A stretch of 34,706 bases of DNA from a bacterium. Its GTDB lineage: Bacteria > Actinomycetota > Coriobacteriia > Coriobacteriales > CADBOM01. The stretch covers positions 1 through 34,706 of the forward strand of contig JAILQZ010000028.1 of assembly GCA_024698685.1 (NCBI GenBank), read 5' to 3'. The notes beneath the pieces are model-generated. The model did not search any database. It worked only from the letters and a program-made list of their open reading frames with translations, and was not told the DNA's origin. This document shows, in pieces, positions 1,146-34,706 of this stretch. The position numbers and the translations under genes are program-made. How positions within the stretch are numbered: the first letter of the stretch is position 1; every line of letters begins with the position of its first letter.

Positions 1146-3074
1146 TTAGAGCTTGCCGAGATCCATCGCCGCGAAGAAGCCGGTGTGGACCGCTCCGCCA
1201 ACCTTGCCGACCTTCTTGGCGTCGCCGATGAGGGTGACCCTGCCCGGCGTATCGTCGAGGTCGAAGTACAGGTCGTTGACGCTCTTCATTCCAACTGCGT
1301 AGAACACGCTGTCGGCCTCGATGCGGACCTCCTCGCCATCCTTTTCGTAGATCACCGCGCCGTCGACGACCTCCTTGACCATCGCGTTGGTGATGATCTC
1401 GACCTTGTCGACCATGAAGCGCATGATGCCGAGCTTGTAGAGGCCCTGCGCGTCGCGCGCGTAGGAGTCCATCGCCTCGAGGACGGTGACCTTCTTGCCG
1501 AGGCTGCTCAGGTGGATGCCGGTCTCGCAGCCGATGAGGCCGCCGCCGATCATCACGATGTTGTCGCCCTTGACGCACTCGGGGTTGTCGTAGACCTGGG
1601 TTGCGTGCAGCGCCTTCTCGATGCCCGGGATCTTCGGGGTTACCGGCTCGGAACCGGTGGCCACGATGACGTCGTCGTAGTTTCCGTCGGCGATGAACTC
1701 GGGCGTGACCTCGGTGTTCAGCAGCACGCGGATGTTGCTGGCCAGCGTGGTGTCGACCATGTACCTCTTGTAGCGGCGCAGGTCGTTCTTGTAGTTGTCG
1801 GCCTCGGCGAAGTTGATCCTGCCGCCGAGCTTGTCGCTCTTCTCGGCCAGGGTGACCTCATGGCCGCGCTTGGCCGCGGTGATGGCGGCCTCCATGCCGG
1901 CTGGGCCACCGCCCACTACGAGAACCTTGCGGGGCTTGAGCGCCTTGCCGATGTCCTCCCCGAAGCCCAGGCGCGCCTCGCGGGCGATCAGCGGGTTGAC
2001 GCTGCACTCGAAGTGGCGGCACGCGTTGTCGTTGTCGGTGCAGTGCAGGCAGCGCAGGCACGGGCGGATCTTGTCGAGCTGGCCTGCCAGCGCCTTTTCG
2101 GGCAGGTAGGGGTCGGCGATCAGCGCGCGCGACATCGACACGCCGTCGGCTTTGCCGGATGCGATGACATCCTCGGCGATCTCGGCGCTGAGTACCGAGC
2201 CTACGGAGAAGATCGGGATGTGGATCTTTCCGGACTTCTTGATCTGCTCCGCATAGCCCGCGTTGAGCGCGTAGCCGTGATAGGTGCATGCGGTGCAGTG
2301 GGTGATCTCGTCGCGGCTGATCTCGGCGAGGTCGATGTAGTCCTGCGCCTTCTCGAGGAATGCGATGATGTCCTCGGTGGTGAAGCCGCCGGGCACGGGC
2401 TCGCAGCCGGCGATGCGCATCATGATCACCTGGTTGGGCCCAACGCGGTCGCGTACCGCCTTGACGACCATCAGCGGGAAGCGCATGCGGTTCTCGATGG
2501 GGCCGCCGAACTCGTCGGTGCGGGTGTTGCTCAGCGGCGAGAAGAACTGCGAGAACAGCCAGCTATGGCCGAAGTGCAGCAGGACGGTGTCGAAGCCTGC
2601 GTGGAGCATGTACTCGGTGGTGTCGGCGAACTGCTCGCAGACGTGCTCCATGTCCTCTATGGTCATCGCGCGGACGGGCTTGCGCTCGAAGTAGCTGATG
2701 GTGTCCACCGGGCCCATAGGCTGCACGGTGTTGTAGGCGGTCTTGATCTTGTTGCCGCCGTGGGTGAGCTCGACGCTGGCGATTGCGCCGTGCTCGTGTA
2801 TGGCCTGCGCCATCTCGGCATAGAGCGGCAGGTTGTCGTCGTTCTTGATCATCTCGGGGGTATGGCATCCACCGTCTCCAACGGACATCTCGCCAAGGTT
2901 GATGATCGCAGCGCCGCCGCGCGCCTTGTGCTCGAGGTAGCCGATGTAGTAGTCGGTGGGTCTGCCGTCCACGGTGTGGAAGATCATGTTCGGCGCAGAC
3001 ATGATTCTGTTCTTGAGGATAAGATTCTTGATCTTAAGCGGCTTGAACAGATTCGGAAATTCCTTAGAGTACAT
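1146..3074 (-). CDS. OYE-type fused NAD(P)H:flavin oxidoreductase (enoate/dienoyl reductase-like)
   Basis: This complete 642-residue protein has the three-domain plan of 2,4-dienoyl-CoA reductase and trimethylamine dehydrogenase. An FMN-binding TIM barrel (about 1-335) is followed by a 4Fe-4S motif CxxCxxCx11C (CLRCLHC, near 338-357). Next come an FAD-binding fold with VVGGGPAGMEAA (about 390) and a nested NAD(P) site IGGGLIGCETG (about 500). It probably reduces an alpha,beta-unsaturated substrate anaerobically; the substrate cannot be read from sequence. The active-site segment is HFGHSWL, keeping the His pair but with Trp at the usual Tyr position. The ATG at 3074 follows an AGAGG ribosome site. 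It lies 45 bases upstream of the similar partial gene at 1-1100, so the two look like a tandem duplication in one operon. Confidence 0.93.
   Translation of the reverse strand: MYSKEFPNLFKPLKIKNLILKNRIMSAPNMIFHTVDGRPTDYYIGYLEHKARGGAAIINLGEMSVGDGGCHTPEMIKNDDNLPLYAEMAQAIHEHGAIASVELTHGGNKIKTAYNTVQPMGPVDTISYFERKPVRAMTIEDMEHVCEQFADTTEYMLHAGFDTVLLHFGHSWLFSQFFSPLSNTRTDEFGGPIENRMRFPLMVVKAVRDRVGPNQVIMMRIAGCEPVPGGFTTEDIIAFLEKAQDYIDLAEISRDEITHCTACTYHGYALNAGYAEQIKKSGKIHIPIFSVGSVLSAEIAEDVIASGKADGVSMSRALIADPYLPEKALAGQLDKIRPCLRCLHCTDNDNACRHFECSVNPLIAREARLGFGEDIGKALKPRKVLVVGGGPAGMEAAITAAKRGHEVTLAEKSDKLGGRINFAEADNYKNDLRRYKRYMVDTTLASNIRVLLNTEVTPEFIADGNYDDVIVATGSEPVTPKIPGIEKALHATQVYDNPECVKGDNIVMIGGGLIGCETGIHLSSLGKKVTVLEAMDSYARDAQGLYKLGIMRFMVDKVEIITNAMVKEVVDGAVIYEKDGEEVRIEADSVFYAVGMKSVNDLYFDLDDTPGRVTLIGDAKKVGKVGGAVHTGFFAAMDLGKL
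1969..2038. repeat. Direct repeat copy 2 (paralogue identity block)
   Basis: This is the partner of bases 1-70, with 69 of 70 bases identical. It lies in the FeS-cluster coding region of the 1146-3074 reductase gene. Confidence 0.8.
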
Positions 3075-5982: not shown

Positions 5983-7989
5983 CTACTTCACTATGCCAAG
6001 GTCGTTGACGATGAAGTGCGCGTCGCTCGTGGCGAAATAGATGTTGCGCGGTACGCAGCAGTCGCCAACCTGATGGAAGATCGGCGCGCAGTTGCGCAGG
6101 TCGAAGGCCTCCTGGCGGCGCGGCTGCATTCCGACGGCATAGGCAATCGTGTCGGCCTCGTAGAGATGCGTGCCCTCTGCGGCATCTGCCGGGTAGAGTG
6201 GCAGCGCGAACCTGCGGCCCGGGATGGGCTTGGTGCCGGTGAACTCCGCGAGCACTCCGTCGCCGTTGATCTCGAGCGCCTTGGTCGAGGTCGAGACCTT
6301 GATGCCGTACTTGGTGAACTGCGTGGAGATCGCGAGGCCGTGGAGCATCTCGCCGTTGTCCCTGAGGTTGGAATCCATCTCGATGATCTGGCACTCGCAG
6401 CCCTGCGTCATCGACAGGAAGATCGCGAGCTCCATGCCCACGAGGCCGCCGCCGATGATGAGCACGCGCTTGCCCGCCTTCTCCGGGTGCAGGTAGAGCT
6501 CTTCGGCCTGGAAGACGTTCGGCTCGTCGATACCTGGGATGTTGGGCTTGATGGGCGTGGCGCCAAGGCAGGCAATGATCGCGTCGGGTGCGATGGCATC
6601 GGCGAGTTTGGGCGTGGCCGGGTGCTCGAGGAGGACGTCGATCGGAAGCTTGCCGATGGTGCGGCGCTGCAGGTCGATGTACTGCATCAGCTTCTCCTTG
6701 AAGGGCACCTTGGCCTCGCAGAGAAGTCCGCCGCCAAGCTGGCCGGTGGCTTCCGCCAGCACGACCTCATGCCCGTTGCGAGCTGCGGTGATGGCTGCCT
6801 GCATGCCGGCCATTCCTCCGCCAGCGACGAGGATCTTCTTCTTGGGCCTGAACGGCGAGAGCGGCAGATGGTTGTCGTACTCGTGGCCGATCTCGGGGTT
6901 GATCGCGCAGGTGATCGGGCCATTCGTGATGTGGAGCGAGAAGCAGTGCAGGCAGCGCATGCACTTGCGGACCTCGTCCTCGCGGCCCTCGCGCAGCTTG
7001 TTCGGCATGTCGGGATCGCAGATGATGGCGCGCGCCATCGAGACGACGTCGACCTTGCCAGACGCGATGAGCTCCTCCATCTGCTCGGGCTCGGAGAGCG
7101 CGCCGAGGGCGCCCACGGGGGTCTGCTTCACGTGCTTCTTGATCTCGACCGCCCACTTGGCGTTGCAGCCGTCCTCGAGGAACATGTTCGGATGCGTGAC
7201 GGTGAAGACCTCGTTGACCTCGTGGCTACCGGTGGAGATGTTGAGCAAGTCGGCGTGGCCGTCGAACTGGACCGCCTGCGCGATTCCGTTCTCGATATGG
7301 TAGCCGCCATCCCAGATCTCGTCGCCGACCATGCGGAGCTCGATGGGGAAGCCGCGGCCGCAGACCTGGTGGATGCGGTCGCAGACCGCGTTGGCGAAGC
7401 GCGCGCGGTTCTCGATGGAGCCACCCCACTTGTCCTTGCGGTTGTTCGACTCGTGCAGGAACTGCGAGATGAGGAAGCCGTGGCCACCGTGGACCATGAC
7501 CATGTTGAATCCGAGCAGCTTGGCGAACTTGGCCGCTTGCGCGTACTCCTCGATGATGGCCATGATCTGATCCTCGTTCATGGCCTTGATCTCGTGGCCA
7601 AGCGGGCTGACGCCATCGATGACGCCCAGCGCCGGGAAGCCCTGAGAGAAGGAGAAGTAGCAGGCGTTTCCTCCGTGGCAGAGCTCGATCGAGGCGACTG
7701 CGCCGTGGCGGGTGATCCTGCGCGCGATGTCGGCGATTCCCTGCCTGCCCTTGAGGTTGTTGTGATCCCAGAGCGGAACGCCGATGTCGGACATGCGCGC
7801 CGCTGCGGAGATGACGCCGCTACCGAGGGTTACGGTTGCAACGCCGCCTGCCGCCTTGCGCTCGTAGTAGCTTGCGGCAACGCTCTGCGGGTCGAACTCA
7901 TTGCCCGTGGGGGCGCCGAAGATGCGGTTCCGGAAGACCTGATTGCCAAGGACAATCGGCTCGAACAAATGCGGGTATTTGGTGGCCAT
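5983..7989 (-). CDS. OYE-type fused NAD(P)H:flavin oxidoreductase
   Basis: This 668-residue flavoenzyme has the FMN barrel (about 1-340), the 4Fe-4S motif CMRCLHC plus Cys after 11 residues (about 345), an FAD fold with VAGGGMAGMQAA and a second dinucleotide site IIGGGLVGMELA. It is expected to reduce an activated double bond with NAD(P)H. The barrel segment HGGHGFL keeps the His pair but has Phe at the classical Tyr. It is a close paralogue of the gene at 8327-10324, more distant from the 1146-3074 pair. Similarity between the two begins at the ATG (MATKYPHLF versus MIDKYPHLF), which fixes the start at 7989 although the only strong ribosome site (GAGGAGGAG, from 8023) is 33 bases away. It has its own promoter region and a terminator upstream separating it from the paralogue. 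Confidence 0.93.
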   Translation of the reverse strand: MATKYPHLFEPIVLGNQVFRNRIFGAPTGNEFDPQSVAASYYERKAAGGVATVTLGSGVISAAARMSDIGVPLWDHNNLKGRQGIADIARRITRHGAVASIELCHGGNACYFSFSQGFPALGVIDGVSPLGHEIKAMNEDQIMAIIEEYAQAAKFAKLLGFNMVMVHGGHGFLISQFLHESNNRKDKWGGSIENRARFANAVCDRIHQVCGRGFPIELRMVGDEIWDGGYHIENGIAQAVQFDGHADLLNISTGSHEVNEVFTVTHPNMFLEDGCNAKWAVEIKKHVKQTPVGALGALSEPEQMEELIASGKVDVVSMARAIICDPDMPNKLREGREDEVRKCMRCLHCFSLHITNGPITCAINPEIGHEYDNHLPLSPFRPKKKILVAGGGMAGMQAAITAARNGHEVVLAEATGQLGGGLLCEAKVPFKEKLMQYIDLQRRTIGKLPIDVLLEHPATPKLADAIAPDAIIACLGATPIKPNIPGIDEPNVFQAEELYLHPEKAGKRVLIIGGGLVGMELAIFLSMTQGCECQIIEMDSNLRDNGEMLHGLAISTQFTKYGIKVSTSTKALEINGDGVLAEFTGTKPIPGRRFALPLYPADAAEGTHLYEADTIAYAVGMQPRRQEAFDLRNCAPIFHQVGDCCVPRNIYFATSDAHFIVNDLGIVK

Positions 7990-8326: not shown

Positions 8327-10324
8327 CTACATTGCGAGTCCAAGGTCGCGGACGATGTAGTGTGCATCGCGCGTGGCTGTTTGGATGTTGCTAGGAATCT
8401 CGCAGTCGCCGATCTGGTGGAAGACCGGTGCGCAGAAGCGCAGAGCGTCGGCCTCTTCGCGACGACTCTTCATACCGATTGCGTATGCGATCGTATCGGC
8501 CTCGTAGAGATGCGTACCCTCCTCGGCATCTGCCGGATAGAGCGGCATTCCGAAACGCGGCACCGAATCGGGCTTGACGCCGGTGTACTCGGCAAGCAGG
8601 CCGTCGCCGGTGATCTCGAGAGCCTTGGTGGAGGTCGTTACATTGATTCCATACTTCGTGAACATCGTCGAGATTGCCAAGCCGTGGAGGATGTTGCCAC
8701 CGTCGTTGAGGTTGGGCAGCATCTCGACGATCTGGCACTCGCGGCCCTGCATCGCCAGGAAGATCGCGAGCTCCATGCCCACGAGTCCGCCGCCGATGAT
8801 GACTACGCGCTTGCCGGCTTTCTCAGGATCGAGGTAGAGCTCCTCGGCTTGGAAGACGTTGGGTGCGTCGACGCCGGGGATGTTCAGCTTCATCGGCGTT
8901 GCGCCGAGGCATGCGAGAAGCACGTCGGGCTTGACCTGCTCAGCGAGCTCAGGGGTGACCTTGTGGCCGAGCGCGACGTCGATCGGGAGCTTGGCGATGG
9001 TGCGGCGCTGCAGGTCGATGTACTGCATGAGCTTCTCTTTGAACGGCACCTTGGCCTCGCACTGGAGCGCACCGCCGAGCGAATCGCCGGCCTCGCAGAG
9101 GATGACCTCATGACCGTTCTTGGCTGCGCTGATAGCGGCCTGCATTCCCGCCATGCCGCCGCCGGCGACGAGCAGCTTCTTCTTCGGCTTGGAGGGGAGA
9201 GCTGCGAACGATTCGTACTCGTGGCCGATCTCGGGGTTGATCGCGCAGGTGATCGGGCCCTTCATCATGTGTGCGGAGAAGCAATGCAGGCAGCGCATGC
9301 ATTTGCGGACCTCGTCGTCGCGTCCCTCGCGCAGCTTGTTCGGCATGTCGGGATCGCAGATGAGGCCGCGCGCCATCGAGACGACGTCTGCTCCGCCGGA
9401 GGCGATGAGCTCCTCGAGCATCTCGGGCTCGGAGAGTGCGCCGAGCGCTCCGACCTTGGATTCCTTGACATGCTTCTTGATCTCGACAGCCCACTTGGCG
9501 TTGCAGCCGTCGGGGAGGAACATGCTCGGATGCGTGGTGGTGAAGACCTCGCGCACCTCATGGCTGCCGGTGGAGACGTTGAGGATGTCTGCGTGGCCAT
9601 CGAACTGCATCGCCTGGGCAATGCCCTCGTCGATGTGATAGCCCTTGTCGTAGATCTCGTCGCCGACCATGCGAAGCTCGATCGGGAAGCCGCGTCCGCA
9701 GAGCTGGTGGATGCGGTCGCAGATTGCAACAGCCAGACGTGCGCGGTTCTCGATGGAGCCGCCCCACTTGTCCTTGCGGTTGTTGTTCGGCATCAGGAAC
9801 TGGGTGATGAGGAAGCCATGTCCACCGTGAACCGTGACCATCTTGAAGCCGAGCTGCTTGGCATACTTGGCTGCCTGTGCATAGGCCTCGATGGCTTCCA
9901 TAATCTGGTCCTCGGTCATCGCCTTGATCTCATGGCCGAAGGGGCCGATCTCGTCGATTGGGCCACGGAGCGGGAAGCCGTTTTCGGCCGAGATGTAGGA
10001 AGCGTTGCCGCCGTGGCAGAGCTCGATCGATGCAACGGCGCCATGGCGGTTGATCTTGGCGGCCATGTCGGCGATTGCCTGCCTGCCCTTGATCGAGTTG
10101 TTCCAGAGGTCGATGCTGATTGCCAGGTTACGTCCAGCAGGGGAGACGTCGCCGCCGCCAACGCAAACGCTCGCAGCGCCGCCTATGGCCTTGCGCTCGA
10201 AATATGCAGAGCTGTAGTACTGCGGGTCGAATTCAACGCCAGTGGGGGCGTTGAAAATGCGGTTCCTGAAGACCTGATTGCCGAGGACAATCGGCTGGAA
10301 CAGATGCGGATACTTGTCGATCAT
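8327..10324 (-). CDS. OYE-type fused NAD(P)H:flavin oxidoreductase
   Basis: This 665-residue reductase has the same layout as its downstream paralogue: FMN barrel, 4Fe-4S motif CMRCLHC with the fourth Cys 11 residues on, FAD site VAGGGMAGMQAA and NAD(P) site IIGGGLVGMELA. It carries HGGHGFL with Phe in place of the OYE proton-donor Tyr. The frame continues upstream to 10486, but similarity to the paralogue begins at MIDKYPHLF, so ATG 10324 is chosen. The strong AAAGGAGGAGG site is 36 bases upstream, with a CCGGC/GCCGG hairpin between. The substrate is unknown; in gut Actinobacteria these families reduce plant, steroid or bile-acid-like enones, but no partner gene here identifies the compound. 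Confidence 0.92.
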   Translation of the reverse strand: MIDKYPHLFQPIVLGNQVFRNRIFNAPTGVEFDPQYYSSAYFERKAIGGAASVCVGGGDVSPAGRNLAISIDLWNNSIKGRQAIADMAAKINRHGAVASIELCHGGNASYISAENGFPLRGPIDEIGPFGHEIKAMTEDQIMEAIEAYAQAAKYAKQLGFKMVTVHGGHGFLITQFLMPNNNRKDKWGGSIENRARLAVAICDRIHQLCGRGFPIELRMVGDEIYDKGYHIDEGIAQAMQFDGHADILNVSTGSHEVREVFTTTHPSMFLPDGCNAKWAVEIKKHVKESKVGALGALSEPEMLEELIASGGADVVSMARGLICDPDMPNKLREGRDDEVRKCMRCLHCFSAHMMKGPITCAINPEIGHEYESFAALPSKPKKKLLVAGGGMAGMQAAISAAKNGHEVILCEAGDSLGGALQCEAKVPFKEKLMQYIDLQRRTIAKLPIDVALGHKVTPELAEQVKPDVLLACLGATPMKLNIPGVDAPNVFQAEELYLDPEKAGKRVVIIGGGLVGMELAIFLAMQGRECQIVEMLPNLNDGGNILHGLAISTMFTKYGINVTTSTKALEITGDGLLAEYTGVKPDSVPRFGMPLYPADAEEGTHLYEADTIAYAIGMKSRREEADALRFCAPVFHQIGDCEIPSNIQTATRDAHYIVRDLGLAM

Positions 10325-10396
10325 AATCAGTGCCCGGCTCAGCGTTGACGATGTGCCGGACCTCCTCCTTTCGATCTCTAGCGGGCATTTCTTCCT

Positions 10397-10449
10397 CTGG
10401 TTGCGCAGAGACGGCAAACCAGAAGCATATATGCTTTGAATTCTAGCAC
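10397..10449 (-). promoter_or_regulatory. Promoter block and 26-bp palindromic operator of the 10324 reductase
   Basis: On the minus strand an extended -10-like TAGAAT (10440-10445) is preceded by GGTGC. The palindrome 10397-10422, with arms CTGGTT and AACCAG, follows. A separate perfect palindrome AAGCATATATGCTT lies between them. The block matches that of the 7989 gene, except that the -10-to-palindrome distance is 17 rather than 12 bases. Confidence 0.58.
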
Positions 10450-10584
10450 CGCCGCATGTTCTCGCACGGCTGAAAGTCAATCGCATTAAATATCATCACA
10501 CGGATAGTTCGAGTCGGTGTAGCGGTAAGATAGTCTTTGTAAGACAATGCGCGCCTACCTGTATTAAAAGCATGGAGGAATGTC

Positions 10585-19573: not shown

Positions 19574-21535
19574 TTACAGCCACACCACCTGGTTGAATGC
19601 ATCGTGGTTGGCCCAATAGATGTTGCGCGCCTCGTTGGCGTCGCCCACGACGACCGTGTCGGGCACTACGTAGCGCAGCTCGTCGACGACCTTGGCGTCT
19701 GGCTTCAGGCCGAACGAGGTGACGACGGTGTCGCACTCGATGCGCGCGACTTCTCCGTTGCGCTCGTACTCGACGTATCCGTCTCCGATGGAGCAGACCT
19801 TCGCCTCGTCGATGAGCTTGATGTCGAGCTTCTTCATCCAATCCTTGAGAGCGCCGCTGTTCTCGAACGGGATCTCGCGCATGAGCATGTTGGCTGGCAG
19901 CATGTCGATGAGCGTGACCTCGCAGCCTTCCTCATGGGCAAGGTCGATTCCGGCCTCGGTGGCGCTCAGGCCAGCGCCGCAGAAGACTACGCGCTTGCCG
20001 ACGGGCTTGAGGCGCAGGTCGGCCTCGGTGACGTTGATCACGTTCTCGCCATCGATTCCGGGGATCTTAGGAACGATGTGATCGGCACCGATCGCCAGAA
20101 CGACGAAGTCGGGCTTCTCTGCTTCGATGAGCTCGGGAGTCACCTTGGTGTTGAGGTGAATCGTGGCGCCGCACTCCTCCGTCTCGCGGATGCTCCACTT
20201 GAGGTAACGGCGGAAGTAGTCCTTGCACCACATCGCCGATGCCTCGCGCAGCCTTCCTCCAAGTTCGCCTTCGGCCTCGTACAGATCGACCTTGTGGCCG
20301 CGCAGCGTGGCGATCTGGGCAGCCTGCATGCCGGCAGGGCCTCCGCCGATGACCATAACGCGTCCGGGCTTGTCGGCCTTGGCGATGTGCTCGAACTGCA
20401 GTTCACGGCCGCGCGTGGGGCTGACGGAGCAGCGCACCGGTTGACCTAGGCCTGGGGTGGTGATGCAGAGATTGCAGTGCAGGCACGGCTTGATGCGATC
20501 TGCCTGACCGCGCCAAGCCTTCTTCGGAAGCTCGATGTCGGCGACCATGTTGCGCGCCATCGCGACGATGTCGGCCTTGCCGGTTGCGACGATCTCTTCG
20601 GCAGCGTAGATGTCGGGGATGTTGCCAACCGCTGCGACTGGCGTATCGATGAGCTCCCTGATGCGGGCGGTGCGCTCGACGTTGATGTTGCGGGCCACCA
20701 GGTAGGAGGGCATCATGAACTGGACCAGGCTGAGGTCGCAGATCAGCCCGCCGGAGAGGTTGACCAGGTTGATGTACTTTCCAGCCTCCTTGAGGAATGC
20801 TGCGATGTCCTCGACCGAGGGCGAGCCATCCTTGTATTCCCAAGAGCTGATGCGATACTCGATGCCCATGTCAGGGCCGATTTCGGCGCGAACCGCCTCG
20901 AGCAGTTCGAGCTGGAAGCGCATGCGGTTGTTCAGGCTTCCACCGTACTCGTCGGTGCGCGTGTTGAAGACCGGGCTGAGGAACGAGGAGACCAGGTTGC
21001 CATGCGCGCCGTGGATCATCAGCATGTCGAAGCCAGCTTGCTTAAGACGGCGAGCCGCCGCCACGAAGTCGGCGATGACCTTCTGCAGGTCGGCCTTGGT
21101 GACCACGTGGTATTCGCGGTTGGGAGCCAGATCGTCGCTTAGCGAGCATACCCAAGCGGGCTGTCCCTTGAGGGCTATCGGGTTAGCGATGCGCCCTGCG
21201 TGGATGAGCTCGGCGGAGATCTTCGCGCCGTAGATGTGCGCCTCCTTGGCGAGGTTGCCAAGGCCCGGGACATCGGTGTCGCGAACCACGGAGAGGCATC
21301 CGAGGAAGTCGCGCCCCTCATCATGGTTGACCGGCGAGGAGCCGATTGTGACGAGACCTGCGCCGCTGCGCGCCTGCGCACCGATGTAGGCCACCATCGA
21401 AGGGGTGACCTCTCCGCTCACTCGCTCGCAATGCGCCGATACGGTTGGCGAGAACTGGATGCGGTTCTTCAGCTGCACCGGCCCTAGGTCGATGGGGCTG
21501 AATACATGCGGGAATTCGTTGAAGCTAGGACCCAT
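19574..21535 (-). CDS. OYE-type fused NAD(P)H:flavin oxidoreductase
   Basis: This 653-residue enzyme is a fifth, more divergent member of the fused flavoprotein family here. The FMN barrel contains HGAHGNL, with Asn where OYEs have the donor Tyr. A 4Fe-4S motif CLHCNLC with Cys 11 residues later lies near 345. FAD (MVIGGGPAGMQAA) and NAD(P) (VVFCGAGLSATEAG) sites follow. In the second dinucleotide site the usual GGG is CGAG. ATG 21535 follows AAAGGGG and lies 29 bases after the Cys-rich gene, so the two share an operon; the SDR gene follows 95 bases downstream. It likely reduces an enone or enoate whose carbonyl partner is handled by the SDR. Confidence 0.92.
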   Translation of the reverse strand: MGPSFNEFPHVFSPIDLGPVQLKNRIQFSPTVSAHCERVSGEVTPSMVAYIGAQARSGAGLVTIGSSPVNHDEGRDFLGCLSVVRDTDVPGLGNLAKEAHIYGAKISAELIHAGRIANPIALKGQPAWVCSLSDDLAPNREYHVVTKADLQKVIADFVAAARRLKQAGFDMLMIHGAHGNLVSSFLSPVFNTRTDEYGGSLNNRMRFQLELLEAVRAEIGPDMGIEYRISSWEYKDGSPSVEDIAAFLKEAGKYINLVNLSGGLICDLSLVQFMMPSYLVARNINVERTARIRELIDTPVAAVGNIPDIYAAEEIVATGKADIVAMARNMVADIELPKKAWRGQADRIKPCLHCNLCITTPGLGQPVRCSVSPTRGRELQFEHIAKADKPGRVMVIGGGPAGMQAAQIATLRGHKVDLYEAEGELGGRLREASAMWCKDYFRRYLKWSIRETEECGATIHLNTKVTPELIEAEKPDFVVLAIGADHIVPKIPGIDGENVINVTEADLRLKPVGKRVVFCGAGLSATEAGIDLAHEEGCEVTLIDMLPANMLMREIPFENSGALKDWMKKLDIKLIDEAKVCSIGDGYVEYERNGEVARIECDTVVTSFGLKPDAKVVDELRYVVPDTVVVGDANEARNIYWANHDAFNQVVWL

Positions 21536-26193: not shown

Positions 26194-26544
26194 ATGGCCG
26201 ATTCGTTGAAGGATATGCTGGCTAAACTCCCTGCCGAGGTTAAGGAGAGGCTGAACGCGTATGTCGAGGAGCAGGCAGCCGAGGGCGTCGATCCCGCAGA
26301 GGCTTGCGCTGCGTTTGCAGAGAAGAACGGCGTAAAGGTTGCCGTCGCCGAGGTCAAGAAGCTCTTCGACGAGCTCTCTGACGATAGCCTCGAGAAGGTC
26401 GTCGGAGGACTTGCACTCGGAGCAGACAAGCTGGCGAGTCAGCTTGCGAGCTCTGACAAGCTGGCAGATCAGCTGGCACTCGTAGATAAGGACGTGCTGG
26501 CGAGCCTTGCACGCTTCAAGGAGGGTCTGGCCAAGCTCGTGTAG
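26194..26544 (+). CDS. Nif11-like double-glycine leader peptide precursor
   Basis: This 116-residue protein has ATG 26194 behind AAAGGAG. Residues 1-72 resemble Nif11/NHLP-type leaders: SLKDMLAKLPAEVKERL, then AFAEKNGVKVAVAEVKKLF, ending in ELSDDSLEKVVGG, a typical Gly-Gly cleavage site at 71-72. The predicted 44-residue core has no Cys. It is made of repeated amphipathic units (DKLASQLASS, DKLADQLALV, DKDVLASLARF). Lack of Cys rules out lanthionine or disulfide rings, so the mature product may be an unmodified amphipathic helix. The C39-peptidase exporter starts 1.1 kb downstream and is the natural processor. An unrelated small helical protein that mimics a leader is possible, but the ELSDDSLEKVVGG end argues against it. 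Confidence 0.72.
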   Translation: MADSLKDMLAKLPAEVKERLNAYVEEQAAEGVDPAEACAAFAEKNGVKVAVAEVKKLFDELSDDSLEKVVGGLALGADKLASQLASSDKLADQLALVDKDVLASLARFKEGLAKLV

Positions 26545-26687: not shown

Positions 26688-26921
26688 CTATGTTGCCACG
26701 ACGTGCAGGTCCTGGCCGCACTTGGGACATCGATAGAAGAATCCCTCCGAACCCTTCATCAGGATCATCCTGGATCCGCATGCGCAGCGCTTCGAGAGTG
26801 CGAGGCCGTTTGGCCTTGTGATGCTGCTGAACGACACTCCGCCGGAGATGGCCTCCAGTTGCTCATCTGTCAGCTCGAAGCGCCCATTCACGTCGCTTCC
26901 ATCGAACTTTCTTGCGGCCAT
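26688..26921 (-). CDS. Candidate GG-leader peptide with zinc-ribbon-like core
   Basis: This 77-residue protein starts at ATG 26921, which has AGAGG upstream; the frame extends to 26957 without a better site. Residues 1-28 end in FELTDEQLEAISGG, a clear double-glycine leader pattern like those of class II bacteriocins. The predicted 49-residue core contains CACG (46-49) and CPKCG (65-69), 16 residues apart between the inner cysteines. This is the spacing of a rubredoxin/zinc-ribbon knuckle pair. The product might be an exported metal-binding peptide, or the cysteines may be disulfide-linked. Alternatively it is a cytosolic zinc ribbon with a coincidental GG. Proximity to the exporter at 27.1-32 kb favours the precursor reading. 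Confidence 0.65.
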   Translation of the reverse strand: MAARKFDGSDVNGRFELTDEQLEAISGGVSFSSITRPNGLALSKRCACGSRMILMKGSEGFFYRCPKCGQDLHVVAT

Positions 26922-26989
26922 CCAGATTCCTCTCTGCCTGCACCCCATTCGGAACATGGCCGGAGCGATGTTCCTCGGTCATCATTCCA

Positions 26990-26995
26990 ATTATA
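26990..26995 (-). promoter_or_regulatory. -10 element of the zinc-ribbon peptide gene
   Basis: TATAAT on the minus strand, 68 bases before the ATG at 26921; no good -35 is seen. The plus-strand TATATT at 27091-27096, close to the HlyD start, could serve the exporter operon. Confidence 0.4.
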
Positions 26996-27122
26996 TCATG
27001 TGGTCTTTTAACGGTGAGAATATGCTAAAAAGTGCCATATTGTGCATGAATCGCGCCCGTTATCCGCACATTTTCAATTATCCTTAACGATATATTGCAT
27101 TTTTCAGCAGGAGGTCGGTTGA

Positions 27123-27647
27123 ATGAGCGCCCCCAAGGCTCGTAACGACGTGCTTTTCAGGGAAGAGGCATTGCGAAGAGCTGCTTCCGTCGAGGACTTG
27201 GATCGATATATCAAAGTCGCAAATCCAGGCGCCTGGGCGATAGCCCTGGCTGTGGCCGCGCTGCTCGTCGCAGCGATCATCTGGGCGGCAACGGCCAAGA
27301 TTCCCGTCGAGGTCTCTATGCCTGGAGTGGTCTTGGGCGACACGATCTACTGCTACGTTCCCGCCGACGAGTCTACCGAGGTGACGAAGGACAGCATCGT
27401 CGAGGTGGCGGGCTTCGATAGCCAGATCATCGAGGTTCACAGCTCCATGCCCCTTTCGAAGCGCGAGGTTGCCGAGCAGGTTGGCGACTACGTATCCACC
27501 ACGCTTGGACTCGGCGAATGGAGCTTTTTGGTAGAGGTGGCTGTTCCCAAGGATCTCAATGATACGATCGAGGTGGGGATGGACGTTCCCGTCACGATCG
27601 TCACGCAGGAGGTCTCTCCGATCTCATACCTATTCGGCGGTGAATAG
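27123..27647 (+). CDS. NHLM/NHLP-type HlyD-like secretion protein, short form
   Basis: This 174-residue protein has the N-terminal signature of NHLP-system membrane fusion proteins: LFREEALRRAASVEDLDRYI, then a single membrane helix (about 39-58, AIALAVAALLVAAIIW) and IPVEVSMPGVV. The following extracytoplasmic part is only about 110 residues. It lacks the long coiled-coil and lipoyl hairpin that make typical HlyD adaptors 300-420 residues. It could be an abbreviated adaptor for export across a single membrane. ATG 27123 follows AGGAGG. It is the first gene of the exporter operon and stops six bases before the peptidase-ABC transporter. Confidence 0.82.
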   Translation: MSAPKARNDVLFREEALRRAASVEDLDRYIKVANPGAWAIALAVAALLVAAIIWAATAKIPVEVSMPGVVLGDTIYCYVPADESTEVTKDSIVEVAGFDSQIIEVHSSMPLSKREVAEQVGDYVSTTLGLGEWSFLVEVAVPKDLNDTIEVGMDVPVTIVTQEVSPISYLFGGE

Positions 27648-27653
27648 CCCGAT

Positions 27654-29819
27654 ATGGCGATGCGCTTGAAAAACGTTCCAGTTGTCATGCAGATGGAGGC
27701 GACCGAATGCGGTGCAGCCTGCCTGACCATGATCCTGGCCCATTTCGGGCGCTGGGAGCCTCTTGAGCAGGTGCGCAAGGACTGTGGCGTCTCGCGCGAT
27801 GGCAGCAAGGCCAAGAACATTCTTCTCGCCGCTCGGAGGTACGGTCTCGAAGCGAAGGGCTACTCGTACGATCTCGAGGCCCTCAAGGCCAATCCCGAGC
27901 TGCCGTGCATCCTCTTCTGGAACTTCAGCCACTTCGTGGTGCTCACCGGCTTTTCGAGCAATGGGAAGTGGGCGTATATCAACGACCCAGCACGCGGGTC
28001 GCTCCGCGTTGACATGGAGGAGTTCGACCGCGCGTTCACCGGGGTCGTGCTCATCTTCAGGCCAACGGAGAGATTCGTCAAAGACGGCAAGCCGGCGAGC
28101 ATGATAGATTTCGTGCGCGAGCGCCTCAAGGGAATGGTTGCGCCGGTGGTGTTCATAACCATCACCTCTGCCATCCTCTCCACTCTGGGAATCTTCAATG
28201 CGGCGATGTCACGCGTTTTCATGGACAAGGTTCTCGGCGGAGGGGCAGAGAGCGGATCTTGGCTTTCGATATTGATCGGCGTGCTCTTGGTGATAGCGGT
28301 GGCCGAGTGCATCATAATGATCATCAACGCGATCTACCTGATCAGGATTCGCGGGAAGATGGCGGTGACATCTTCGTCGAAGTTCATGTGGCATCTGCTC
28401 CACTTGCCAGTCGACTTCTATTCACAGCGCTACGTGGGCGATTTGCAGCAGCGCCAGGAGTCCAATGAGACGATCGCCACTACGCTCATACAACAGCTCG
28501 CTCCTACGTTGATCAACCTCGTGCTCATCGTGCTCTATCTCGTGGTCATGTTCGCCTACAGCGTGACTCTGGCGCTCGTCGGCATCATCACCGTGGCCAT
28601 CAACATCTTCGTGGCGCGCATAGTGTCGAAGAAGCGTGTCAACGTTACGCGCCAGCAGGTGCGCGACAGGGGCAAGCTCTACAGCACGACGATCGCAGGT
28701 ATCGACATGATCGAGAGCATCAAGTCGTCCGGCTCGGAGGAGGGCTTCTTCGCGAGGTGGAGCGGCTTGCAGGCGCTCGTCAACGAGGGGGATGTGCGCT
28801 ACGGACGCCTCAATGCGATCCTCGGGACCCTTCCCGCCGCCGTCGTCAAGCTTGCCAACGTGGTGGTCCTCATCATCGGAGCATGGCTGATCATGAATGG
28901 AGAGTTCACCGTAGGAGCTCTCGTCGCTTTCCAAGGATTCCTATCATCCTTCATGTCGCCGGTTCAGGAGGTCATCGGGCTGGGCCAGTCTGTTCAGGAG
29001 ATGCGAACCCAGATGGAGCGCATCCAGGACGTCATGGACTACGAGGTCGATGTGCCCGAGACATACGAAGATGAGGAGAGCGTTGAGGGCCTCTCCAAGC
29101 TCAGCGGGGCGATTGACATCGAGCATCTCTCATTCGGCTACTCCGAGCTCGATCCCCCGATCATCGAGGACTTCGACCTGCACGTCGAACCCGGCAAATG
29201 GGTTGCGCTGGTCGGTGGATCCGGTTCTGGCAAGTCGACGGTCGCCAAGCTCATCTGCGGGCTCCACACCCCGTGGGAGGGGACGATCGCATTCGACGGC
29301 GTGAATATCGAGGATGTGCCGCGCGAGCAGTTCCGCGGTTCGGTCGCGCTGGTCGCCCAGGACATCGTCACCTTTGCTGGAACCGTTGCCGACAACGTGC
29401 GCATGTGGGATGAGTCGATCGAGGGCTACGAGGTGATCATGGCCTGCCGCGACGCGGGAATCCACGACGACATCATCGCCCGCGACGGCGGCTATCGCAG
29501 CGAGATGCTGCCTGGCGGGCGCAACTTCAGCGGAGGCCAGCTGCAGCGCCTGGAGATCGCTCACGTGCTTGCGCTCGATCCGACGATCATAGTCATGGAC
29601 GAGGCCACGAGCGCTCTCGACGCGAAGACGGAGGCGCAGGTGATCGAGAGCATCCGCAAGCGCGACACTACATGCATCGTGGTCGCGCACCGTCTCTCGA
29701 CGATTCGCGATTGCGACGAGATCATCGTCTTCGATGCAGGCAAGGTAGTGGAGCGCGGCACCCATGAGGAGCTGCTCGCCAAGAACGGAGCCTATGCAGA
29801 GCTCGTAAGGAGTGCTTAG
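27654..29819 (+). CDS. Peptidase-containing ABC exporter (C39, NHLM ABC1 type)
   Basis: This 721-residue protein cleaves leader peptides at Gly-Gly and exports the cores. The N-terminal C39 peptidase domain shows Cys19 in ATECGAACL, His93 in SHFVVLTG and Asp111 in NDPARG. A transmembrane domain follows (about 160-450). The ATPase domain has Walker A GGSGSGKST (about 520), signature NFSGGQLQR and Walker B IIVMDEATSALD, plus the H-loop VVAHRLS. It lies six bases after the HlyD-like gene and just before the companion transporter. Suitable substrates with GG leaders are encoded at 26194 and 26688. The gene is complete with no damaged motif. Confidence 0.93.
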   Translation: MAMRLKNVPVVMQMEATECGAACLTMILAHFGRWEPLEQVRKDCGVSRDGSKAKNILLAARRYGLEAKGYSYDLEALKANPELPCILFWNFSHFVVLTGFSSNGKWAYINDPARGSLRVDMEEFDRAFTGVVLIFRPTERFVKDGKPASMIDFVRERLKGMVAPVVFITITSAILSTLGIFNAAMSRVFMDKVLGGGAESGSWLSILIGVLLVIAVAECIIMIINAIYLIRIRGKMAVTSSSKFMWHLLHLPVDFYSQRYVGDLQQRQESNETIATTLIQQLAPTLINLVLIVLYLVVMFAYSVTLALVGIITVAINIFVARIVSKKRVNVTRQQVRDRGKLYSTTIAGIDMIESIKSSGSEEGFFARWSGLQALVNEGDVRYGRLNAILGTLPAAVVKLANVVVLIIGAWLIMNGEFTVGALVAFQGFLSSFMSPVQEVIGLGQSVQEMRTQMERIQDVMDYEVDVPETYEDEESVEGLSKLSGAIDIEHLSFGYSELDPPIIEDFDLHVEPGKWVALVGGSGSGKSTVAKLICGLHTPWEGTIAFDGVNIEDVPREQFRGSVALVAQDIVTFAGTVADNVRMWDESIEGYEVIMACRDAGIHDDIIARDGGYRSEMLPGGRNFSGGQLQRLEIAHVLALDPTIIVMDEATSALDAKTEAQVIESIRKRDTTCIVVAHRLSTIRDCDEIIVFDAGKVVERGTHEELLAKNGAYAELVRSA

Positions 29820-29820
29820 C

Positions 29821-32007
29821 ATGAGCTGGTTCGAAGAGCAGATCGAGACGCGTCGCAAGCTCGACGATGAGCAGCTTTCCGACACCTACGCCCGACTTGC
29901 GGCGTCGGTGATGGGCGACAGGCGCTCGCCGCGATTCACCATGGATGACGCCGATGCCGCGGACAGCGCGGTTGAGGCTGTCCTGTCCTACTATGGCGAA
30001 AAGCCCGATAAGGTGCCGAATTCGGTAATCGATCCCGACGAGCGCATCGATGTGGCCATTCGCCCATCGGGAATGATGAAGCGTACCGTGCAGCTTGAGG
30101 GCGCCTGGTGGAAGGATGCAACCGGAGCCTACATCGGCAAGCTCAAGACAGGCGAACCCGTTGCGATCATTCCCACGGGCATACGTGGGTACGGTTACGT
30201 AGTGCCGGGAACCAATCGCAAGGTGCGTGTCAACGCCACCACCTCCACAGACCTTGATTCCGAGGCCTACTGCCTCTATCGCCCGCTTCCGTCTCACGAG
30301 CTCTCAGTGAAGGACCTGCTGAGGTTCATGCGCCGCGCGCTCGATCGCTACGACTACCTGCTCATCGCCATCGCGTCGCTCGCCGTCGCTCTCGTAGGCT
30401 TGCTCCCCGCGATCGTCAACGAGCTCCTCTTCGCCAAGATCATCCCATCGGGCGTGCCCTCGCTGATCTTTCCGATCGCGGCGATGCTCATAGGCGTCGC
30501 CATCGCGCAGGCAACGATAGGAATGGCGAGATCGCTTGTCGTCTCGCGCTTGCAATCCAAGCTATCGGTGCAGATCGAGGCCGCCGTGATGGCACGCACC
30601 CTTACGCTCCCAGCTCAGTTCTTCAAGCGCTATGAATCGGGCAGCCTCGCCAACAGGGTCGTATCTGTCGGCCATTTCGTCGAGCTCATGGCGCAAACCA
30701 TCATCGGAATCGGCCTCACATCGCTCTTCTCGATCGTCTACATCGTCCAGCTCTTCGCATATGCGCCCTCCATCGCGCTGACTGCGCTCATCATCCTTTT
30801 GGTGCAGCTTGCCGTCGGAGCGATCGTTGCCGCTGCCCAAGCCCGTATCGAGCGCGTGATCCTCGAGTCAAACAACAAGGTGGCGGGACTCACCCCGTCG
30901 CTGCTGACGGGCATCGCCAAGATCAAGCTCGTAGGTGCCGAGAAGCGCGCCTTCGCGCAATGGGGCAACCTCTATGCCGAATACTCGAAGGCAAGGTATG
31001 ACAGCCCGGTGATCGTGAAGATGTCGGCTGCCCTTCCTGCGCTCATCGCGCTTTTCGGGACCATAGCGATCTACTTCTTCGCCGGTATCACCAACGTCAG
31101 CGTTGCCGACTACATGGCTTTCAACGTCTCCTACGGTGCGGTTTCCGGAGCGGTTATGGCGCTGACCAGCCTCGCGGCGACGATTGCGACGATGAGTCCG
31201 ATGCTAGAAGAGGTCGAGCCGCTGCTCAAGGCCGTTCCCGAGCATGTCAGCGCCGGCAAGCCCGTGGCGAGCCTCTCGGGCAGCGTCGAGGTCTCGAACG
31301 TCACCTTCCGCTACCAGGAGAACCAGCCCACCGTCCTCGATGGGATCTCGTTCAAGATCAAGGCGCGCGAGTACGTCGCGATAGTCGGAGAGAGCGGTTG
31401 CGGCAAGTCCACGTTGCTGCGTCTGCTGCTCGGCTTCGAAACGCCTGAGCGCGGAAGCATCTACTACAACGGCCAGGACATCGCAGAGATCGACGTACGC
31501 AGCCTGCGCCGCCAAATCGGAGTCTGCATGCAAAACGGCAGCCTCTTCGCAGGCGACATCTTCAGCAACATCACCATCTCCGCACCGCATGCCAGCATCG
31601 ACGATGCTTGGGAGGCTGCGGAGCTGGCGGGCATCGCCGACGACATCCGCAAGATGCCGATGGGGATGTACACGCTCATCAGCGACCGCTTCGGTGGAGT
31701 ATCGGGAGGCCAGCGCCAGCGCCTCATGATTGCGCGCGCCATCTGCGCGAAGCCGAAGATCCTCATCTTCGACGAGGCCACCAGCGCGCTCGACAACGTC
31801 ACGCAGCGACACGTCAGCGATGCTCTCGCTGGTCTCGATTGCACGCGCATCGTAGTCGCGCACAGGCTATCCACGATCCAACTTGCCGACCGCATCCTGC
31901 TCATCGAGGGCGGAAAGGTCAAGGAAGAGGGGACATACAACGAGCTGATCGAGGCCAATGGCTCTTTTGCCAAGCTGGTCGAGAGGCAGAGGCTCGAGGG
32001 AGAATAG
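29821..32007 (+). CDS. Companion ABC transporter without peptidase (NHLM ABC2 type)
   Basis: This 728-residue transporter has an N-terminal non-peptidase domain (about 1-165) replacing the C39 domain. It is followed by six hydrophobic segments (about 175-440) and an ATPase with GESGCGKST, GVSGGQRQR and ILIFDEATSALD. This matches the second ABC protein of NHLM/NHLP export systems, probably heterodimerising with the upstream peptidase-ABC protein. A GTG at 29812 is possible, but ATG 29821 has AAGGAG at 29807-29812 eight bases before it. The ATG lies one base after the upstream stop codon, indicating tight coupling. Confidence 0.9.
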   Translation: MSWFEEQIETRRKLDDEQLSDTYARLAASVMGDRRSPRFTMDDADAADSAVEAVLSYYGEKPDKVPNSVIDPDERIDVAIRPSGMMKRTVQLEGAWWKDATGAYIGKLKTGEPVAIIPTGIRGYGYVVPGTNRKVRVNATTSTDLDSEAYCLYRPLPSHELSVKDLLRFMRRALDRYDYLLIAIASLAVALVGLLPAIVNELLFAKIIPSGVPSLIFPIAAMLIGVAIAQATIGMARSLVVSRLQSKLSVQIEAAVMARTLTLPAQFFKRYESGSLANRVVSVGHFVELMAQTIIGIGLTSLFSIVYIVQLFAYAPSIALTALIILLVQLAVGAIVAAAQARIERVILESNNKVAGLTPSLLTGIAKIKLVGAEKRAFAQWGNLYAEYSKARYDSPVIVKMSAALPALIALFGTIAIYFFAGITNVSVADYMAFNVSYGAVSGAVMALTSLAATIATMSPMLEEVEPLLKAVPEHVSAGKPVASLSGSVEVSNVTFRYQENQPTVLDGISFKIKAREYVAIVGESGCGKSTLLRLLLGFETPERGSIYYNGQDIAEIDVRSLRRQIGVCMQNGSLFAGDIFSNITISAPHASIDDAWEAAELAGIADDIRKMPMGMYTLISDRFGGVSGGQRQRLMIARAICAKPKILIFDEATSALDNVTQRHVSDALAGLDCTRIVVAHRLSTIQLADRILLIEGGKVKEEGTYNELIEANGSFAKLVERQRLEGE

Positions 32008-32031: not shown

Positions 32032-32334
32032 ATGGAGATCGTAACCAGGCACGAGGGAAGCACCGACACCATCGCCGTCTTCGGCAAGCTGACGGTGACT
32101 TCGGCGCCGAAGCTCGAAGAGGCCGTCGCTGCGCTTGGACCCTGCGCGTGCGACGTGGTGTTCGACCTCGCAGCGCTCGAGTACATCGCCTCTGCGGGGC
32201 TGCGCGTGCTCGTGGGCACCCAGCTCAAACTGGGCGAGACCGGAGGCAAGCTGCGTATCCTGCATCCCAACGACGAGGTGATGGAGGTCTTCGAGATGAC
32301 CGGCCTCGTCGACGTGCTGACGATCGAGCGCTAA
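32032..32334 (+). CDS. STAS-domain anti-sigma factor antagonist-like protein
   Basis: This 100-residue single STAS domain is of the SpoIIAA/RsbV type. The strand-helix pattern leads to VFDLAALEYIASAGLRVLV, where Ser54 matches the phosphorylated Ser; the preceding Asp of SpoIIAA is Ala here. Such proteins bind an anti-sigma kinase when unphosphorylated and are reset by a PP2C phosphatase. ATG 32032 follows AGGAGG, 24 bases after the ABC2 stop. The next gene encodes both a PP2C (SpoIIE) domain and an RsbW-like ATPase. The pair forms a partner-switching module within the exporter operon. No sigma factor gene is in the window. Confidence 0.88.
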   Translation: MEIVTRHEGSTDTIAVFGKLTVTSAPKLEEAVAALGPCACDVVFDLAALEYIASAGLRVLVGTQLKLGETGGKLRILHPNDEVMEVFEMTGLVDVLTIER

Positions 32335-32340
32335 AGCCGT

Positions 32341-34706
32341 ATGGAAAGCAAAGCGCGCCGCAATCCATTCCTATCGAAGGGGTTGATGGAGGACTCGAGC
32401 AGAATCATCCGCTCGTTCACCTTCGTCATCCTGGTCGTCCTCGCGCTTGCGATGGTCGCGACGTCTAACAGCTTCATCCAGATCTCGCTGTCGCATCTCC
32501 TGCTGATACTGGTGCCGATATCGATCGGCGCGCTCCTGCTCGGAGCGATCGGTGGCTGTTGCATCGGTCTCATCGCTGGGGTCGGGCAGACGCTGCACGC
32601 GATCTTCATACCTCTCAACTACTACGAGAGGTTCTTTGCGCATTCCGCCAACACCGTTATCGTCTTCGTCGTATTCGGGCTGGTCGTCGGGCTTCTCTAT
32701 GCGAAGTGCATACGCTATCCGAAACGCGGAGATCTGCTCGAGGGCGGCGGGGTATCTAAGGGAGGCAAGCGCATAGCGGCCATCGCGATAGCCTCGCTGA
32801 TCGGTTCAGCAGCTGCCAGCCTCTGCTTCCTCGCTGGGGTTCGCATGGGGAGTTCTGCCCCGATGATCGGCGTGCTGATCAATTCGCTGGCCAAGATGGT
32901 GACGGCGGGCAACATGCTCGCGCAGGTTCTCATAGATGCGGTCATTGTAGCGGCGATCGCGGTTGCGATCGACTTCTTCTATGCAAGGTACGGGATCTAC
33001 AGGAGCAATCGCAGCATCAGCTTCATCTTCCGCGCCACTTTCCTAGCGATCATGGTGACCGCGATCTTGTTCTTCAGCGGCTTCACATACCTCTTCATCA
33101 CGGTTTCGACGCTTTACGATGCGGATTACTCGCTGCAGGATCAGATCGGCTATGTGCAAACCGTGCTGGGGAATTGCGATGCGATGGCAGACGACATCGC
33201 CAAGGATACGAATCTGAGCGATGCCAAGAGAGATCAGCTGAAAGCCGATCTCATCTACGATACCGATGTGGATCTCAAGGGCTGGCGCACCGATATCGTG
33301 TTGGTTGCGAAGAACGATACGATCATACTGGCAAACAACGGGGAGTATCTTGGCAGGTCGCTTTCCGGAGTGCTCACCGCAGGGCTCGAAGCGGGTGTGA
33401 CCAGCGATACGTTCGATTCCGATTTCGCTCTCGAGTTCTACACTGACGGCATCGAGCCCAGCTACATGCGCGTTTCCAAGTTCGGCGAATACCAGATTAT
33501 GGCTGCCATCGAGTCCTCCGAAATCTTCAGCTACCGAACGGTTGCCATGGTGATCGTCCTCGTTGCGCTCCTGATTCTCTTCGGAATGATCTTCCCGCTT
33601 GCGTTCAAGCTGATCGACAGATTCATGGTGAAGTCGATCAACGATACCAACTCGGCACTTGAGCGCATCACCGCAGGTGACCTGTCCGTTCGCGTGCCCG
33701 AAGGAAATTCGCGTGAGTTCAAGTCGCTCTCAAGCGGAATCAACACCACAGTCGACGCCCTGTCAGATGCGATAGAAGCTGAGAGCGCGCGCCTCGACAG
33801 TGAGCTCGCGACGGCCAAGGCCATCCAAGAGAACTCGCTGCCACGGATATTCCCGCCCTTCCCGGATATCGACAGGTTCGATCTCTATGCGGGCATGGAT
33901 CCGGCGAAGGAGGTCGGTGGCGACTTCTACGATTTCTTCGAGCTCGAGGGCCCGCGCGTGGGTCTCGTGATGGCGGACGTCAGTGGCAAGGGAATCCCGG
34001 CGGCTCTCTTCATGATGGCTGCGAAGTCCCAGATCCACGGATTCATGACCACGGAGCCTACGCTCGCAGAGGCTATCAAAAGGGCCAACCTCAACCTTTG
34101 CAGTGGCAACGAGACGCACATGTTCGTCACCGTATTCGCAGCGATATTCGACTTCGAGCGCTACACGCTGACCTACGTCAACGCCGGCCACAATCCGCAA
34201 CTCATACGCCGCGGAAGCGAATGGGAATGGCTGCGCAGCCGTTCCGGGATGATGCTGGGCGTCTTCCCCAATGCGAAGTACGAGCAGTTCGAGACCACGT
34301 TCGAGCCCGGCGATGAGCTCTTCATGTACACCGACGGAGTCACGGAGGCATGGAGCTCCGATGAGCAGATGTACGGCGAGGAGAGGCTCAAGGTGTTCCT
34401 CGAGCAGCACCAGAGGCTGCATCCGCGCAGGCTGCTGCGCGCGTTGAGGGCCGAGCTCGCGATTTGGGCTAACGGGGCCGAGCAGTCTGACGACATCACG
34501 ATGATGGCGCTGGCTTGCGGACAGGTGCCGGAGTATGGGGACACGCTGGTCACTGAGGCCAAACTCGAGAACTTCGACGATGTCCTCGACTTCGTCGACG
34601 ACCAGCTCAGGCGCGCGGATTGCTCCAAGCAGGCCGCCAACCAGATACGCATCGCAGTGGAGGAGCTTGTCGTCAACGTCTGCAAGTACGCATATCCCGA
34701 CGCAAC
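32341..34706 (+). CDS. Membrane SpoIIE-type phosphatase fused to RsbW-like ATPase, 3' end beyond window
   Basis: The frame is open to the window end (788 codons). Order: an N-terminal membrane block of about five to six helices (about 20-235), reminiscent of ECF S-components; a helix near 240-260; an extracytoplasmic sensor region (about 260-395, Cache-like by layout); a helix (about 400-420); HAMP (about 420-480); and a PP2C/SpoIIE domain. The last contains EVGGDFYDF, MADVSGKGIP, YTDGVTEA and QSDDIT (the metal-binding Asp set). A HATPase_c domain then begins, with EELVVNVCKYAYP (N-box) at the edge. It should dephosphorylate the STAS protein in response to an outside signal, while its ATPase domain may phosphorylate it. 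ATG 32341 lacks a good ribosome site; ATG 32386 is an alternative. Confidence 0.88.
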   Translation, partial: MESKARRNPFLSKGLMEDSSRIIRSFTFVILVVLALAMVATSNSFIQISLSHLLLILVPISIGALLLGAIGGCCIGLIAGVGQTLHAIFIPLNYYERFFAHSANTVIVFVVFGLVVGLLYAKCIRYPKRGDLLEGGGVSKGGKRIAAIAIASLIGSAAASLCFLAGVRMGSSAPMIGVLINSLAKMVTAGNMLAQVLIDAVIVAAIAVAIDFFYARYGIYRSNRSISFIFRATFLAIMVTAILFFSGFTYLFITVSTLYDADYSLQDQIGYVQTVLGNCDAMADDIAKDTNLSDAKRDQLKADLIYDTDVDLKGWRTDIVLVAKNDTIILANNGEYLGRSLSGVLTAGLEAGVTSDTFDSDFALEFYTDGIEPSYMRVSKFGEYQIMAAIESSEIFSYRTVAMVIVLVALLILFGMIFPLAFKLIDRFMVKSINDTNSALERITAGDLSVRVPEGNSREFKSLSSGINTTVDALSDAIEAESARLDSELATAKAIQENSLPRIFPPFPDIDRFDLYAGMDPAKEVGGDFYDFFELEGPRVGLVMADVSGKGIPAALFMMAAKSQIHGFMTTEPTLAEAIKRANLNLCSGNETHMFVTVFAAIFDFERYTLTYVNAGHNPQLIRRGSEWEWLRSRSGMMLGVFPNAKYEQFETTFEPGDELFMYTDGVTEAWSSDEQMYGEERLKVFLEQHQRLHPRRLLRALRAELAIWANGAEQSDDITMMALACGQVPEYGDTLVTEAKLENFDDVLDFVDDQLRRADCSKQAANQIRIAVEELVVNVCKYAYPDA

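Follow-up and report, generated by a model that had tools for sequence, protein, structure and literature searches.

A double-glycine-leader precursor with a predicted zinc-ribbon core beside an NHLM exporter of Coriobacteriales

The NHLM export cassette (TIGR03794/03796/03797) is accompanied by peptides of the N11P (TIGR03798/PF07862) and NHLP (TIGR03793) families (Haft et al. 2010, PMC2887384). N11Ps beside the cassette were already named in Eggerthella lenta, and the cores of both families were described as low-complexity (PMC2887384). We analyzed a 34,706-nucleotide stretch of a Coriobacteriales genome (contig JAILQZ010000028.1; the whole stretch is called here the window), in which a small gene at 26688-26921 of the minus strand, divergent from an NHLM exporter, encodes a double-glycine (GG) leader followed by a predicted zinc ribbon. 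GG leaders, large paralogous sets and adjacency to the cassette are common to the N11P/NHLP peptides and to the precursors described here. The latter differ in that their cores are predicted zinc ribbons and, in the window, in that the leader is short and falls under the cut-off of both models.

Three other kinds of protein were considered for comparison. Class II bacteriocins and microcins that leave the cell through C39-peptidase ABC transporters (TIGR01847 leaders, peptidase-containing ABC transporters known as PCATs, microcin V) have a like leader and exporter type, and the microcin V exporter takes cargo of very diverse composition (PMC10231218); however, the literature searched yielded none whose fold is a four-Cys zinc site. 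Prochlorosins (PMC10783134) share a conserved Nif11 leader and many diverse cores per genome, but they are lanthipeptides made by one enzyme, ProcM, whereas a constant predicted metal-binding scaffold is seen here and the radical SAM enzyme of the Bacillota loci is mostly missing from the Coriobacteriales. The zinc-ribbon domains of topoisomerase I, TFIIS, RPB9 and VdcD have the knuckle motif and the predicted fold in common with our cores, but these domains or subunits belong inside the cell and have no secretion leader. No open-literature paper combining Nif11 with a zinc ribbon was found, subscription papers being outside the search. The leaders and the NHLM cassette are already known, and the ribbon-core class is not described in the literature searched. 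The reading that we prefer, with a probability of about 0.72, is that the window precursor is exported by way of its GG leader through the NHLM exporter and that its core folds around zinc, as a probable bacteriocin-like effector.

The window precursor and its family

The features of the gene were the following.
26688..26921, minus strand: GG-leader zinc-ribbon precursor, 77 aa (leader 28, core 49), stop included
26838..26921, minus strand: leader MAARKFDGSDVNGRFELTDEQLEAISGG, with a C39-type double-glycine site and hydrophobic residues at -4, -7 and -12
26691..26837, minus strand: predicted core VSFSSITRPNGLALSKRCACGSRMILMKGSEGFFYRCPKCGQDLHVVAT, a four-Cys zinc ribbon (CxC-G ... CxxC-G)
26928..26935, minus strand: ribosome-binding site AGAGAGGA, 6 nt from the ATG, read from the sequence
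26990..26998, minus strand: extended -10 like element TGATATAAT, for which a -35 was not found

Translation of the frame gave the leader and then the core with the knuckles CACG and CPKCG, which confirms the 28-residue leader and 49-residue core of a preliminary description of this DNA. The first knuckle is CxC rather than CxxC, and the start of the core contains VSF, that is, an aromatic residue in the place of the fifth cysteine of the Bacillota cores described below. The leader has I at -4, L at -7 and L at -12, as in C39 substrates. The position of AGAGAGGA 5′ of the ATG supports the start at 26921. It had also been proposed that the gene is transcribed away from the exporter, and indeed it is divergent from the HlyD-like gene that starts at 27123 and precedes ABC1 and ABC2 on the plus strand, the two starts being 201 bp apart. 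The proposed -10 of its own stood in part: there is a perfect TATAAT at 26995-26990 with TG ahead of it (extended -10), but a scan requiring a -35 was empty, so the promoter is plausible and not demonstrated. The combination of a GG leader with two C-x(1,2)-C-G knuckles was found in 1 frame of the real window and in 0 frames of 200 dinucleotide-preserving shuffles of it, on which ground a chance combination was rejected.

Profile searches yielded 114 distinct precursors, all with a GG leader and a four-Cys zinc-ribbon core and most with a leader of the Nif11 type; they come from Coriobacteriales and from ruminant-gut Bacillota. A ribbon as the predicted exported product, which the preliminary description considered unusual, is thus not a lone oddity. 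With the window protein as query, matches (E<=0.01) were obtained in 19 of the 399 genomes of the order; when read, most of the order-level matches had a CxxC...CxxC core behind a GG leader and a few were false. The match in genome G189 was rejected as an ordinary ribbon beginning a larger protein, without a GG leader. After a profile round 41 pattern matches were counted in the order, including L033; this Cys-rich GG peptide fitted the search pattern without being a ribbon and was excluded from the order-level and clade counts. Leaders in the order were mostly Nif11-like and of about 45 residues, those of the window and a few others being short.

A contig scan of the GTDB genomes with the single protein found no relatives, because leader and core are each too short, and a broad family alignment had no stretch sufficiently conserved to use as query. 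A six-member alignment from the order, covering leader and ribbon, retrieved 80 loci among the GTDB genomes, nearly all in gut metagenome-assembled genomes, chiefly of ruminants. Their taxa were Eggerthellaceae, Atopobiaceae and Olsenella and, among Bacillota, genomes labelled Erysipelotrichaceae, Bacilli, Lachnospiraceae or Pseudobutyrivibrio; such labels may err, and one read Saccharibacteria. These Bacillota members ruled out a family restricted to Coriobacteriales. The 80 loci encode 81 distinct precursors of the GG-ribbon kind and a further 49 whose cores are of other kinds, a ratio that is no census since the query was biased to ribbons. The largest array, L158, has 11 ribbon precursors clustered on the same strand, and 19 Bacillota genomes had from 1 to 31 profile matches each (282 in total).

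Hydrophobic residues at -4, -7 and -12 were present in 114/114 family members, although the collecting pattern partly required -4 and -7 and only the fit of the window leader is independent. Both knuckles were C-x2-C in 100 of the 114. The preliminary description looked to homologues keeping the ribbon without the GG leader as evidence against export; in the full-length homologues the leader and the four cysteines were both retained. One ribbon core of the family, NFVQGFKTxLGPYLYPPCPCGG..., is highly conserved, with synteny across three genomes of a single genus (L105 9697-9981, L106 10352-10636, L107 15458-15742); a CmpB-type transporter gene lies nearby, as does a small precursor whose core is INPxAAIYQFVKRYL.

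Association with the NHLM exporter

The exporter is encoded by three genes of the window.
27123..27647, plus strand: short HlyD-like subunit, 174 aa, matching the first 56 of 421 positions of TIGR03794 only, far under the cut-off
27654..29819, plus strand: NHLM ABC1 with C39 peptidase, permease and ATPase, 927.5 bits against a cut-off of 853.3
29812..32007, plus strand: NHLM ABC2 permease/ATPase, 711.8 bits against a cut-off of 709.4

The C39 peptidase of ABC1 retains all of the Gln, Cys, His and Asp motifs and is the sole C39 domain detected in the window genome. HlyD-like versions just as short were also observed in Bacillota loci, which suggests a reduced adaptor in single-membrane cells.

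NHLM ABC1 was present in 98 of the 399 genomes of the order: in 24/25 genomes with a sequence-read GG-ribbon precursor and in 74/374 of the others (Fisher p=4e-15, a value inflated by relatedness and deflated by unread positives among the remaining genomes). By genus, it was found in 11 of the 12 ribbon-positive genera (p=5e-6). In the independent contig scan, a set that includes six Coriobacterial genomes, ABC1 was found in 28/29 genomes, and genome G403 had an ABC2-like match only. The preliminary description held that ribbon precursors in genomes without any C39 exporter would speak against export; ABC1 accompanied them in 24/25 and 28/29 genomes, but no C39 domain was found in genome G200.

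Homologues keeping leader and cysteines near NHLM transporters, which had been proposed as a check, were found in several loci. In L206 the ribbon precursor lies 75 bp past ABC2, in L200 it directly adjoins the exporter, and in L240 and L242 it is immediately ahead of the HlyD/ABC1 genes, that of L240 having a short leader. Ribbon precursors were located <=~6 kb from the exporter in 12/20 Bacillota loci, and the 261 kb around the 20 Bacillota exporters held 14 of them against ~2 expected (282 matches in ~34 Mb). Within the order, G136 and G323 have a ribbon precursor ~4 and ~7 kb from the exporter, the copy of G136 minus one Cys. Since many precursors are far from the exporter, it must act in trans.

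Predicted fold, selection and proposed function of the cores

In the AlphaFold2 model of the window protein the ribbon (residues 51-70) had a predicted local distance difference test of 88-89 with short strands, and the leader was poorly predicted; a Bacillota member gave a helical leader and a three-stranded core. The closest solved fold detected by Foldseek was the topoisomerase I zinc ribbon for the window (prob 0.98) and, for the Bacillota member, VdcD (prob 1.00), TFIIS and RPB9, all of them zinc ribbons. No curated model of Pfam or NCBIfam covered the precursors whole. The Nif11 model (TIGR03798/PF07862) did not match the window protein, whose leader has just 28 residues; the NHLP model TIGR03793 gave 11.6 bits over its last 15 positions alone (cut-off 50.9), and the class II bacteriocin leader TIGR01847 was near, yet under, its cut-off (13.5 against 15.7 bits). 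Among the relatives, L097 reached 34.1 bits with PF07862 (Pfam cut-off 23.8) and TIGR03798 matched under cut-off in four.

Array paralogues had leaders ~78% identical and cores ~37% identical. The knuckle cysteines were invariant in the family alignments, partly because the rows were selected so. Nonsynonymous (dN) and synonymous (dS) divergence was 0.06 and 0.43 for the core shared by L158 and L178, and 0.06 and 0.35 for that shared by L005 and L008, in which the core was more conserved than the leader. Cores common to different species are under purifying selection, and this constraint indicates that they are real proteins with a kept function, diversified between paralogues. In the trio L171, L192 and L196 the leaders were near-constant (dN 0.01-0.03) and the cores had dN 0.14-0.17 against dS 0.06-0.14, a hint, with small counts, of diversifying selection.

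The following path is proposed. The C39 peptidase of ABC1 would recognise the LTDEQLEAISGG leader and cleave it off behind the GG; the 49-residue chain would be exported unfolded by ABC1/ABC2 together with the short HlyD-like protein. Because export would require an unfolded chain, zinc is probably bound outside. The anoxic gut would presumably keep the thiols reduced, and outside the cell the four cysteines would bind zinc to give a ribbon, a compact scaffold whose remaining residues are variable. On the sequence evidence we strongly infer export of the core, and we infer its cleavage at GG by the C39 exporter and its zinc binding. The window peptide is a member of a large Nif11/NHLP-type class with predicted ribbon cores, diversified by duplication, and the ribbon peptides would most likely be bacteriocin-like effectors between gut bacteria, competition being favoured over scavenging by the many divergent paralogues. 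An antagonistic function, taken on its own, is a tentative assignment. In a wider proposal, for which we claim somewhat less than even odds, the ribbons would be a new class of secreted peptides in which a rigid scaffold bears variable effector surfaces. Anaerobic gut bacteria belonging to two phyla would release them through their NHLM exporters and encode them in multi-gene arrays, with up to ~30 per genome, and the Bacillota branch would add a radical-SAM-modified N-terminal Cys. If true, the GG-leader exported peptides would gain a metal-folded scaffold, in gut and rumen anaerobes that are abundant and hard to grow. The 114 precursors would then be a concrete, testable substrate set for the widespread and little-studied NHLM exporters, and the ribbons, with variable cores built on one constant fold, would amount to a natural library of small scaffolds.

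Several observations weigh against the preferred reading. The whole-model predicted template modelling score of the window protein was 0.39, the Foldseek matches were all at E > 0.001 (weak because of the short length), the ribbon domains scored under the Pfam cut-offs, and the short window leader was under the cut-off of every curated leader model. The ribbon-positive genome without a detected C39 domain, G200, is a draft 85% complete. Inspection of the window by eye revealed no immunity gene, and zinc bound before export could hinder translocation. Neither the genomes of the order nor the GTDB contig scan gave a close orthologue of the window core, so selection on that core is not measurable.

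The exported ribbons might be metal scavengers or signals rather than weapons, which we regard as unlikely, though it is the alternative that survives best. Zinc is held tightly by four-Cys sites, a response regulator is encoded in the Bacillota exporter loci, and STAS/SpoIIE modules stand beside the exporter in both phyla; nevertheless, up to ~30 divergent cores per genome would be superfluous for scavenging, and an uptake system for zinc peptides was not recognised nearby.

It is improbable that the peptides are exported with their cysteines as disulfides or as substrates of maturation enzymes (thioether or other crosslinks, as in ribosomally synthesized and post-translationally modified peptides) and not as zinc ligands. 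This possibility draws on the Nif11 leaders, which are classical leaders of such modified peptides (PMC2887384), and on the Bacillota exporter loci, which encode a radical SAM/SPASM enzyme (under the cut-off of every named equivalog) in 10/10 genomes tested. A Cys within the first six core residues is found there in 71/71 cores. But such a Cys occurs in only 2/43 Coriobacterial cores, 38/43 of which, including that of the window, have W or F at that position, and no homologue of the enzyme was found in the window genome nor in 7/9 other ribbon-bearing Coriobacteriales tested. Dependence of the window gene on the Bacillota enzyme was thereby ruled out. Moreover, the four conserved cysteines are in CxxC-G knuckles of the metal-site type, which makes the fifth Cys the likelier target of modification. 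Although the fifth Cys and the presence of the enzyme are both confounded with phylum, these data suggest the N-terminal Cys as the target of the enzyme, with the ribbon independent of it.

Next to the exporter and radical SAM genes of Bacillota there is also a small Nif11-type precursor (L230 3187-3372, L235 2037-2237, L237 5086-5301, L239 9652-9861, L240 4139-4327), whose short core begins A/V-C and mostly ends RK-(F/I)-(D/E)-S. It is likely a dedicated substrate of the radical SAM enzyme.

A cytosolic zinc-ribbon protein with a coincidental GG motif is very improbable: small zinc ribbons are common in bacteria and the window leader has no Nif11 helix, but the shuffles, the same architecture in 114 precursors, the adjacency to and co-occurrence with the exporter, and the second short-leader precursor directly 5′ of the exporter in L240 all argue against it.

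Other genes of the locus and the genome

Three further features were annotated around the exporter.
26194..26544, plus strand: second GG precursor, with a 72-residue leader ending LSDDSLEKVVGG and a 44-residue core without Cys
32032..32334, plus strand: STAS-domain protein of the anti-sigma-factor-antagonist type, in the exporter locus
32341..34704, plus strand: membrane protein with HAMP, SpoIIE phosphatase and HATPase domains, truncated by the contig end

The second GG precursor lies upstream of the exporter, and its core has repeated DKLAxQLA-like helical units; elsewhere in the order it was matched only in the same-genus draft G002, over residues 1-47. The window genome has another GG precursor, L088 (G000:C82:1910-2029), with MTEEIKDQLAPEEVLEDVKAAGQELTDEELEEVAGG and an acidic Cys-free core, on a contig different from that of the exporter.

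A STAS protein and a SpoIIE-type phosphatase were observed 3′ of NHLM ABC2 in Coriobacteriales and Bacillota (window 32032-34704; L107 3739-6795; L239, L240, L242 and L243), with a STAS-APH kinase fusion in some, and are apparently a partner-switching module tied to the exporter. Elsewhere in the window, four big look-alike open reading frames (1146-3074, 5983-7989, 8327-10486 and 19574-21535) resembled, by eye, FMN/FAD reductases of the old-yellow-enzyme type.
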